Below, piece after piece: positions 15,118 through 35,481 of a stretch of 38,482 nucleotides of DNA. Position 1 is the first letter of the stretch; every line of letters starts with the position of its first letter. The notes under the pieces were generated by a model that worked only from the letters and a program-made list of their open reading frames with translations, did no database searches and was not told where the DNA came from. This DNA comes from Candidatus Bathyarchaeota archaeon (GTDB taxonomy: Archaea > Thermoproteota > Bathyarchaeia > Bathyarchaeales > DTEX01), in assembly GCA_003601835.1 (NCBI GenBank), contig PIYB01000004.1, positions 1 through 38,482 of the forward strand, read 5' to 3'. The translations under genes and the position numbers were made by a program.

Positions 15118-15320
15118 TTCAATTCGCTTACTACATATATACTATGTACACCGTCGCTTATAGGTATACCTATTTTTTATGACTTCTATTATGAGATTAA
15201 TAACTTAAACGACGTTTTAAGCGACATTTTTTCCACTGCATCCATCGCACATCATTCATGCTCACTAAAAACCTAAAAAACAAGAGAAATGTAAGGAACA
15301 TCGCTGTTCAACTTAACAAA

Positions 15321-32472: not shown

Positions 32473-32856
32473 ATGTCGAAACCGTTCTACGTTAAGTTTG
32501 AGACCCCGGCGGAGGTCGCCAATGCGGCTTACGAAGCGCTGCAAATAGCAACGCGAACGGGAAGCGTCCGTAAAGGAACCAACGAAACCACCAAAGCCGT
32601 AGAGAGGGGACAAGCAAAACTCGTAGTGATAGCGGAAGACGTTGATCCGCCTGAAGTTGTCGCTCACCTGCCAATCCTCTGCGATGAACGGAAGATTCCT
32701 TTCGTCTACGTGCCAAGCAAAGCCAAACTCGGCGCGGCTGTAGGCATAGATGTTCAATCAGCAGCTGTTTGCATAATTGAAACAGGGGAAGCTACGGATC
32801 TGGTGAAAGAGATTATCCTCCGGGTGCAGAGAGCTAGGGAAGGAGCTAGCGGATGA
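32473..32856 (+). CDS. rpl7ae: Ribosomal protein L7Ae (k-turn binding; also RNP component)
   Basis: '[60 protein letters not shown]'. Confidence 0.97.
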
Positions 32857-33140: not shown

Positions 33141-33338
33141 ATGCCTAGACCTCAACGATGCACGTTCTGTGGAAAAGAATTTCCACCCGGCACAGGAATA
33201 ATGTACGTAAGGAACGACGGCTCAACCCTGTGGTTTTGCTCAAGCAAATGCAGAAAAAACGCTTTGGAGCTGAAACGTGACCCTCGAAAACTCAAATGGA
33301 CAGAATACTACCAGAAAGAAGAAAGAGCCCGAGTGTAG
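33141..33338 (+). CDS. rpl24e: 50S ribosomal protein L24e
   Basis: '[52 protein letters not shown]'. Confidence 0.96.
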
Positions 33339-33447
33339 ACCGCTCACAAAACACAAGTAAGCTCATACGGTAACCTTTTTTTACAGTTTTCACAGGTCAT
33401 CAGATCTAATGCTTGCTATTCTAGAGTTTTTCTTTTTGGATAAACCG

Positions 33448-33690
33448 TATCGTGGGCGCAGTTGTGTTCCGCGCAACTAACACTCAGCATCACCGTGAAG
33501 CGAGCACGCTTCTCTCAGCTAAGCTCTCTCTAACGCGGATTTTCTACCGCCCACGCCCGACCGTGTCCCGCATCTGGGTTAACCCTCCTTCACAGACGGA
33601 TATTTAACATCCATCTAAGTCGGGTCCGTCTAGGCGGGTCCCCTAAAGGGTGCCGGCGGGGTCAGAAGCTCATATCATCGCTGTTCAAAA
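33448..33690. ncRNA. Candidate structured non-coding RNA of unidentified family (strand unresolved)
   Basis: GC-rich noncoding block. Helix CGTGGGCG 33451-33458 / CGCCCACG 33548-33555; hairpins AGTTG/CAACT 33460-33478 and GAAGCG-AGCA-CGCTTC 33497-33512; crossing helices CCCGAC 33556-33561 / GTCGGG 33619-33624 and AGACGGA 33594-33600 / TCCGTCT 33625-33631. Confidence 0.6.
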
Positions 33691-33789
33691 AAGCGAAGGA
33701 AAGTTAGATAAACGTTTCTCTAGTTCTCAGAAGATTCTCCGCACGGTTTTTTTGCTGCCTAAAACTTAGTTAACAAAACCGCGGTTCAT

Positions 33790-35481
33790 TTACTTCCGGA
33801 CCAGCTGTTGCATTTTGCTGACGTCTATTTCGAAGGCAGCCGCTGGGTTTTCCAGTCCCCAGTTCTGCAACACTTGCGGATGAATCTCCCCTATGATTCC
33901 AAGATCTTTCTCTTGCACGAGTATTCTGCCGGTTCTCCCTGCGATGAAGCTTCCGAACTCCATTTCTTCCAAACGATATTTTAGCCCCACGCTGGTCAGG
34001 AGAGCTTCAAGGATGGATTTTGCTTCCGTAAAGCCCGCATTTGAATGGGTAATGACGCACGCGAGCTTCTCCACATCTCTCGTCTTGTTTTCTCGTTTCT
34101 CGTCGTGAATAACGCAGTAACCTACCTCGAAGATTTTCTGCGGGTACTCCACATGCGTGTTGTGGCTGAGAAATTCCATAAGGTTAGGCAGCAACCAGTT
34201 TCTCAAGCTTCTCATGGAAACTATTTTTGGGTTTGCAATCTCAACAACCTTTTCCGGTTTGAGATTCATCTTCGTGAACAAAACCTCAGGGTTGGTCGTC
34301 ACGTAGGTGAGAACCTCTTGGAAACCTAAGCCCACCATAAGTTCACGAATGATGTTCCGGAAATCTTCTTCAGATGAAAGCCTCCCAATTGTTATCAGCT
34401 GCGGCCATCTGGGTTGAATCTTGTTGTAATCGTAGGCTATAGCTATGTCCTCAACGACATCGATTGGATGCAGCACATCTACCCTGTAGCAAGGCACCTG
34501 CACTGTGATCTTGGATTCTGATGCTTCGGCTATTCCGTAACGAGCTTTCTCAAGAAGCACCTTGATTTCTGACAGTTTGAGGTTTATTCCCACAACCTTC
34601 CTGACGTAGCCAACATCTAAGTCGAGCTTCTGAACATCAAGATTCGGTGTCGTAACTTCAGAAACACCGTCATACGAGTAATGTATCTTCGCTGAATAAA
34701 TCGTTCCACCCCGATCAGCCAAAGCAACAGTAACATTTGTCAGCGTTCTAAGCACCGTTTCATAAGCAGTCCCAGTGACTTCAACCAGCACATTCTTGGT
34801 TTGTGCTGTGACCTTGCCTAGATCGTTTGAATTTATTATCGGCGGGAACGAGAGAACTTTGTCCTGTGAGTCCTTGAAGATCGGCCACACGGGAAACTTG
34901 CGAACGATGTGACTGTACTCGATTCCTTTCGGATGCTTCTCAAGAATCTCCTCAAGCGTAAGTTTTTCATCGAAATCTAAAGGAACGAAACTAACCTCCG
35001 TGGGTTTTGCGACGCCGTAACGGAGAGGCGGGTCAACCAAGTCGAAATCGTAGAGCCCTATGGATGTTTTCCGCCGGCTTCTTCCGTAAGTCTGATCCAT
35101 CTTGTCCTGGAAATGCATTATTTGGCGGATCGCAGCATCAGTTAGCTTAACCCCTTTGACGACGGTACAAGCTATGTAAGGACGAATGTTTTCAAGCCTT
35201 GAATCCACATGAACCTTGACGCCGGAAAACCCTGCGACACGGTAATCTTTCAGCCCCGTTTCTACGCCAAGGTATCCGCGAAGAGCCCTAGCGATCCCCT
35301 CTACACCCCAGACGTCAGCCCGGTTGCTGTCCTTCAACTCGATGTGAAGTTCCTCTTCCCCGGAAGTCTTCACCTCTCCTTTTATGTATGCAAGAACCTC
35401 GTTAAGCCTGTCTTCCTCTTCGGGCAACTTGAACCCGAGAAGCGATTCAAGGTCTTCACGTTCCACCTCAACCGTCGGCAT
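33790..35481 (-). CDS. pheT: Phenylalanyl-tRNA synthetase beta subunit
   Basis: 'MPTVEVEREDLESLLG', 'DLVDPPLRYGVAKPTEVSFVPLDF', 'FPPIINSNDLGKVT', 'RSLRNWLLPNLMEFLSHN'. Confidence 0.96.
   Translation of the reverse strand: MPTVEVEREDLESLLGFKLPEEEDRLNEVLAYIKGEVKTSGEEELHIELKDSNRADVWGVEGIARALRGYLGVETGLKDYRVAGFSGVKVHVDSRLENIRPYIACTVVKGVKLTDAAIRQIMHFQDKMDQTYGRSRRKTSIGLYDFDLVDPPLRYGVAKPTEVSFVPLDFDEKLTLEEILEKHPKGIEYSHIVRKFPVWPIFKDSQDKVLSFPPIINSNDLGKVTAQTKNVLVEVTGTAYETVLRTLTNVTVALADRGGTIYSAKIHYSYDGVSEVTTPNLDVQKLDLDVGYVRKVVGINLKLSEIKVLLEKARYGIAEASESKITVQVPCYRVDVLHPIDVVEDIAIAYDYNKIQPRWPQLITIGRLSSEEDFRNIIRELMVGLGFQEVLTYVTTNPEVLFTKMNLKPEKVVEIANPKIVSMRSLRNWLLPNLMEFLSHNTHVEYPQKIFEVGYCVIHDEKRENKTRDVEKLACVITHSNAGFTEAKSILEALLTSVGLKYRLEEMEFGSFIAGRTGRILVQEKDLGIIGEIHPQVLQNWGLENPAAAFEIDVSKMQQLVRK

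Follow-up and report, generated by a model that had tools for sequence, protein, structure and literature searches.

A predicted two-hairpin box H/ACA guide RNA gene of Bathyarchaeia related to HgcG/Pab40

Archaeal box H/ACA RNAs are mostly single-hairpin molecules, two or three hairpins being rare (PMC7991803). The guide of Haloferax volcanii (HP1/HP2, Hvo1/Hvo2) is a two-hairpin small RNA (sRNA) homologous to stems II and III of Pf7; its targets are the pseudouridines (Psi) Psi2621 (E. coli 2586) and Psi1956/1958 (1915/1917), and it has been suggested that one hairpin serves two uridines (PMC2584109; PMC4652768). Archaeoglobus Af4.3 and Methanocaldococcus L2015, which we liken to the present RNA by description, are guides for the 1915-equivalent uridine and are related to Pa40.3 (PMC4652768). 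A literature search retrieved no paper on H/ACA guides in Bathyarchaeota. Here we analyse the gap between L24e and pheT in a stretch of 38,482 nucleotides (nt) of a Candidatus Bathyarchaeota archaeon (GCA_003601835.1, contig PIYB01000004.1, positions 1 to 38,482; "the window", whose numbering is used below). We propose that its minus strand very probably carries a gene for a two-hairpin box H/ACA guide sRNA, the Bathyarchaeia counterpart of HgcG/Pab40 (stems II and III), Pf7 and the Haloferax guide.

A two-hairpin fold on the minus strand

The gap measures 451 nt, from the L24e stop at 33338 to the pheT stop at 33790 (pheT is on the minus strand). A first-pass annotation, made from the letters alone, had described here a GC-rich structured non-coding RNA, read on the plus strand and left without a class. 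In outline this holds: the gap contains no credible open reading frame (ORF), its GC content is above that of the flanks (0.53-0.57 across 33475-33699 versus 0.43-0.49 in most adjacent windows), and the RNA has an H/ACA fold with covariation. Strand and class had to be revised, since the H/ACA features, the conservation of the pockets and a TATA-like box are all on the minus strand and the RNA belongs with the HgcG/Pab40 H/ACA guides. A GTG-initiated ORF of 51 amino acids at 33452-33607(+) was set aside as a protein-coding candidate, the conservation there being RNA-like (compensatory changes and indels). Comparison of the window to Rfam gave zero matches, both at the gathering score and at E<=10, and a search of the window for transfer RNA and transfer-messenger RNA found none. 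Folding energies are -97.4 kcal/mol for the minus strand of the window and -86.3 kcal/mol for its plus strand. A DNA search matched 52 of 101 relatives, nearly always at one place per genome, the matches being limited to ~33448-33697.

The minus strand of 27 relatives was aligned and yielded a structure of 56 pairs with two hairpins, each consisting of a lower stem, a near-invariant internal pocket and an upper stem with a kink-turn (k-turn)-like element, and each followed by a conserved ACA box directly 3' of the lower stem. This structure is supported by (i) the pairing of 90.3% of the cells over the 56 pairs, which falls to only 36-45% when the structure is shifted by 1-3 columns; (ii) changes on both sides in 30 pairs, versus 16.9 +- 1.9 in shuffles (0/500), helices 2, 3, 6 and 7 covarying; (iii) RNAalifold, which recovers nearly the same helices without structure input; and (iv) the pocket arms ACGGAC, ACCCA and GAGAGAGC, which are invariant while the stems vary freely. 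Among 47 sequences aligned to the model, an alignment biased towards that model, 43 of the 56 pairs are compensated.

Spacing and GA-stem rules for productive archaeal H/ACA folds have been published (PMC4652768): the ANA/ACA box lies 14-16 nt 3' of the pocket-closing pair and a k-turn or k-loop ~8-11 base pairs (bp), typically 10, above the pocket. Hairpin 2 follows these rules: in 26 of the 27 sequences 14 nt separate its ACA from the pocket, and its GA stem is 10 bp long with tandem G.A/A.G at 9-10. The ACA of hairpin 1 is 14 nt from the guide arm in the sequences parsed and 15 nt from the A-U closing pair; in many relatives its GA stem has the length and tandem pattern of that in hairpin 2, and in the window a U-A replaces one G.A. 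The alignment was converted into a covariance model (R1), and the gene is made up of the following parts:

33708..33717 (-): TATA-like putative promoter element AAACGTTTAT, lying ~25 nt 5' of the conserved element at 33668..33682
33668..33682 (-): 5' element AGCGATGATATGAGC, showing conservation across many members of the family
33449..33661 (-): core of the two-hairpin H/ACA guide RNA, 213-214 nt (alignment, covariation, R1 match at 33449-33662)
33654..33660 (-): P1 5' strand CCCGCCG, closing helix of hairpin 1 (6/7 pairs compensated among the 47 sequences)
33639..33652 (-): small variable hairpin CACCCTTTAGGGGA
33634..33638 (-): hairpin 1 lower stem, 5' strand CCCGC, pairing with 33567-33571 (6/7 helix pairs compensated)
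33626..33631 (-): hairpin 1 5' guide arm AGACGG (ACGGAC invariant, n=27), complementary to 23S CCGUC (E. coli 2590-2594)
33582..33625 (-): hairpin 1 upper part, made up of a GA stem, a k-turn-like element and an apical stem (covariation in the GA-stem and apical pairs)
33574..33580 (-): hairpin 1 3' guide arm AACCCAG (ACCCA invariant), pairing with CUGGGUU beside U2586
33567..33571 (-): hairpin 1 lower stem, 3' strand GCGGG (covariation)
33564..33566 (-): ACA box 1 (A, C and A invariant, n=27), at a distance of 14 nt from where the 3' guide arm begins
33556..33563 (-): P1 3' strand CGGTCGGG, immediately 3' of ACA box 1
33548..33555 (-): P2 5' strand CGTGGGCG, closing helix of hairpin 2 (6/9 pairs compensated)
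33534..33538 (-): hairpin 2 lower stem, 5' strand CCGCG (8/9 helix pairs compensated)
33524..33530 (-): hairpin 2 5' guide arm GAGAGAG (GAGAGAGC invariant), complementary to 23S CUCUCUU/C (E. coli 1920-1926); its last G doubles as the first base of the GA stem
33514..33524 (-): hairpin 2 GA stem and k-turn, 5' strand GCTTAGCTGAG (10 bp, tandem G.A/A.G with 33482-33494)
33497..33512 (-): hairpin 2 apical stem-loop GAAGCG-TGCT-CGCTTC (helix 8 of the 47-sequence alignment)
33482..33494 (-): hairpin 2 GA stem and k-turn, 3' strand GGTGATGCTGAGT (covariation)
33477..33481 (-): hairpin 2 3' guide arm GTTAG, pairing with U1911-C1914 (GTT and the following G invariant, A in 26/27)
33469..33473 (-): hairpin 2 lower stem, 3' strand CGCGG (covariation)
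33463..33467 (-): ACA box 2, ACACA with two overlapping ACA, 14 and 16 nt from the first guide nucleotide (ANA at 14 nt in 26/27)
33451..33458 (-): P2 3' strand CGCCCACG

The closing helices are extra to the H/ACA fold and well kept (98.8% of cells paired in P1 and 96.5% in P2, 47 sequences). As they enclose the hairpins, the ACA boxes lie in internal loops or junctions, with no free tail. The 5' element is dispensable for the H/ACA fold and is the probable start of the transcript; the letters of AGCGATGATATGAGC, upstream of the H/ACA core, resemble box C/D-like letters. Most relatives have an AAAnnTTTAT/AAAGTTTAT-like box at a near-constant distance, for which a promoter role may be suggested, and at 37 of the 48 loci listed, some of which duplicate one genome, pheT lies upstream in the same orientation. 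The constant distance of the box, together with the upstream same-strand pheT, fits a separate minus-strand gene.

All motifs listed by the first-pass annotation are present in the window, and several recur as parts of the RNA: its 8-bp long-range helix CGTGGGCG/CGCCCACG (33451/33548) is conserved as P2, GAAGCG/CGCTTC as the apical stem of hairpin 2 and GGAT..ATCC as that of hairpin 1. The small hairpin CCC-TAAA-GGG is real (it is the variable hairpin at 33639..33652), its length and sequence varying freely among relatives, while AGTTG/CAACT falls outside the conserved structure.

Distribution and relation to known guides

With R1 the RNA is detected in 218 of the 257 genomes that represent the class; among the 120 good genomes 117 are positive, mostly with one copy. 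Two R1 matches each were seen in G004, G050, G070 and G182, either second copies or contamination. A pattern search of named genome contigs for hairpin 2 matched 22 records, 21 of Candidatus Bathyarchaeota and one of an uncultured archaeon. The remaining phylum shows weaker matches, which often span only hairpin 2 or detect each hairpin separately. In several of these weak-match homologues the stems are wholly different and the GAGAG...GUUAG pocket arms are kept, as would be expected of a guide RNA.

Three homologues match RF00064 (HgcG/Pab40, H/ACA) at 16.9-26.5 bits, all under the gathering score of 77 bits, the best matches being 26.5 bits (E=5.9e-5) and 20.9 bits (E=0.0029); one homologue (L148) combines an RF00064 match with a strong R1 match (94.5 bits). 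Sequence comparison with the Euryarchaeal guides was made through the RF00064 consensus. HgcG/Pab40/Pf7 from the Thermococcales shares with the present RNA the 3' arm of stem II (uAACCCuG) and that of stem III (GUGUUA, found in hairpin 2), an ACA after each of stems II and III, and an identical order. It differs in having three H/ACA stems (I-III), of which only two are found here, stem I being absent and only the short 5' element and the small hairpin being present; in lacking the extra closing helices P1 and P2; and in the 5' guide arm corresponding to that of hairpin 2 (GGUUAG versus GAGAGAG). Arms, order and targets taken together suggest orthology with stems II and III of HgcG/Pab40. The Haloferax two-hairpin guide, which we take to be the RNA named sR-h45, likewise has two hairpins for 2586 and 1915/1917; in the present RNA, in contrast, the hairpins are adjacent and each is inside a closing helix.

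Predicted targets and protein partners

Targets were scanned on the 23S and 16S ribosomal RNA (rRNA) of relatives (753-856 uridines each), E. coli numbering being assigned via conserved sequence motifs and the cited papers. For the hairpin 1 arms of the window, 23S GCUGGGUUUAGACCGUC (E. coli 2580-2594) is top-ranked in every pairing tested that had a 2-nt gap, and it is again top-ranked with the upper-stem pairs kept closed. U2586 is the known archaeal pseudouridine site. The modified base is predicted to be U2586 or its neighbour U2585, between which pairing alone does not decide. For hairpin 2, 4 bp are formed with U1911-C1914 and a further 6-8 bp with the CUCUCU run that follows A1919, so that UCUGA (including U1915 and U1917) stays unpaired; this site ranks first to third with gaps up to 6.

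The helix 69 target is identical in 24 of 24 phylum genomes with a match. Helix 69 reads GUAACUCUGACUCUC in the phylum genomes examined (L045-L048, L150-L173), and every one of them has a C at the position of E. coli 1916. In several relatives the 23S gene carries insertions that lie in CUCUC or directly behind it, a part of the segment with which hairpin 2 would pair; they measure ~30-50, 567 or 757-786 nt between conserved flanks (carriers L049, L151, L152, L157 and L162; short in L048, L150 and L160; longer in L159), and several start with GGGAGUC, complementary to that exon stretch. As the insertions split the helix 69 target, full guide pairing may need prior splicing. The 16S matches of four genomes (G001, G006, G005 and G022; L057-L063) are in several pieces, some on separate contigs, a pattern that suggests introns, gene fragmentation or breaks in the assembly.

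Three proteins of the H/ACA machinery are encoded in the same genome, the assembly of which is 85% complete. Cbf5 and Nop10 genes are found elsewhere in it, and the gene for L7Ae is 0.7 kb from the RNA gene:

32473..32856 (+): L7Ae gene (ribosomal and k-turn-binding protein, subunit of the archaeal H/ACA ribonucleoprotein (RNP); PF01248, E=2.2e-30)

The cbf5 gene of this genome (G000:C35 ~15165-15220, L175) has a frame change in the catalytic motif, where extra bases separate GGTL from PKVTG; this is consistent with the known archaeal cbf5 intron position. According to the proposed mechanism L7Ae would bind the k-turn of each hairpin, and Cbf5, Nop10 and Gar1 would bind the ACA box, the lower stem and the pocket. 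The pocket would pair with 23S rRNA on either side of a uridine, which Cbf5 would isomerise to pseudouridine. Hairpin 1 would act on the peptidyl-transferase centre at U2586 (or U2585) and hairpin 2 on helix 69 at U1915, perhaps also at U1917.

Alternative readings and significance

Several points weigh against the assignment as a pseudouridylation guide. The window RNA itself gives no match to RF00064. The targets were taken from relatives because the 23S of this genome is unassembled. The score of hairpin 1 is only moderately rare, being reached by 8 of 200 shuffled arms, and the pairing of hairpin 2 is not significant against shuffled arms (161/200 for the window arms, 48/200 for those of a relative); since it is no better than shuffles, homology is the main ground for the helix 69 target. 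When the upper stems are closed, both pockets leave 4-5 bases of the target unpaired versus the usual two, hence the exact uridine is uncertain. No Gar1 (PF04410) was found in the 85% complete genome; the control, Sulfolobus acidocaldarius, was also negative, thus PF04410 may miss the Gar1 of Thermoproteota. Finally, we infer transcription, RNP assembly and pseudouridylation from the sequence, fold, covariation, spread, spacing and complementarity and from the Cbf5, Nop10 and L7Ae genes. Non-standard pairing was likewise needed in published models of the helix 69 guide of Haloferax (PMC4652768). The non-canonical 4-5 nt gap in both pockets, the extra closing helices and the breaking of the helix 69 target by insertions in several relatives are what might be expected if the RNA were H/ACA by fold and had another main job, for instance chaperoning 23S folding or maturation at the peptidyl-transferase centre and helix 69. 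In yeast, snR30 has such a role for 18S rRNA. We regard this as improbable, given that the spacing and the GA stem obey the rules for productive guides and that the homologous Haloferax and Pyrococcus guides are reported to act on these uridines.

Far more remote is the reading of the first-pass annotation, a new class of large structured RNA that would be read from the plus strand and contain an H-type pseudoknot. All helices can be written on the plus strand and the crossing strands (CCCGAC/GTCGGG and AGACGGA/TCCGTCT) are present in the window; however, the second helix pairs in only 66% of the cells and the pseudoknot, with 3 pairs changed on both sides versus 1.8 expected (30 versus 16.9 for the H/ACA fold), was rejected as not conserved. 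The strands assigned to it are those that form the guide arm, the GA stem, the apical stem and the closing helix in an H/ACA hairpin. Covariation, which that annotation had named as a check, is indeed strong, but for the minus-strand H/ACA fold; the plus strand is without H/ACA-like logic and folds more weakly, and the TATA-like box and the 5' element suit the minus strand. A divergent RNase P RNA or signal recognition particle (SRP) RNA has next to no credibility. Archaeal RNase P RNA (RF00373) and SRP RNA (RF01857) are GC-rich and of a similar size class, and this genome gave no match to RF00373, which we read as assembly incompleteness. Against this, the fold is unrelated to either and the window is without a covariance-model match; RNase P RNA scored over the cut-off at other places in 73 of 101 relatives, among them many that also have the element described here, and SRP RNA was found elsewhere in this genome (G000:C42:8940-9269) and in 18 of the 21 genomes searched. 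The earlier failure to find RNase P or SRP motifs here was correct, Rfam having nothing in the window.

We therefore retain the H/ACA guide RNA, a previously unannotated, class-wide member of a known H/ACA family. Because two-hairpin H/ACA RNAs are rare in archaea and both hairpins are enclosed by P1 and P2, it may be a guide with some structural variation. That it forms a distinct H/ACA subclass, with ACA boxes inside P1/P2 and pockets leaving 4-5 rRNA bases unpaired, one RNP acting on two active sites of the ribosome and perhaps also ordering 23S folding or splicing at helix 69, is a speculative idea that we think unlikely. The closing helices at the ACA boxes and the insertions in the helix 69 target are small, testable oddities.

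The alignment and the covariance model could extend RF00064 beyond the Thermococcales. An RNA gene that is nearly universal in a large class of uncultured archaea, and that the curated RNA library misses, can now be named, and it predicts pseudouridylated bases in the catalytic centre of the ribosome and in helix 69 of Bathyarchaeia.
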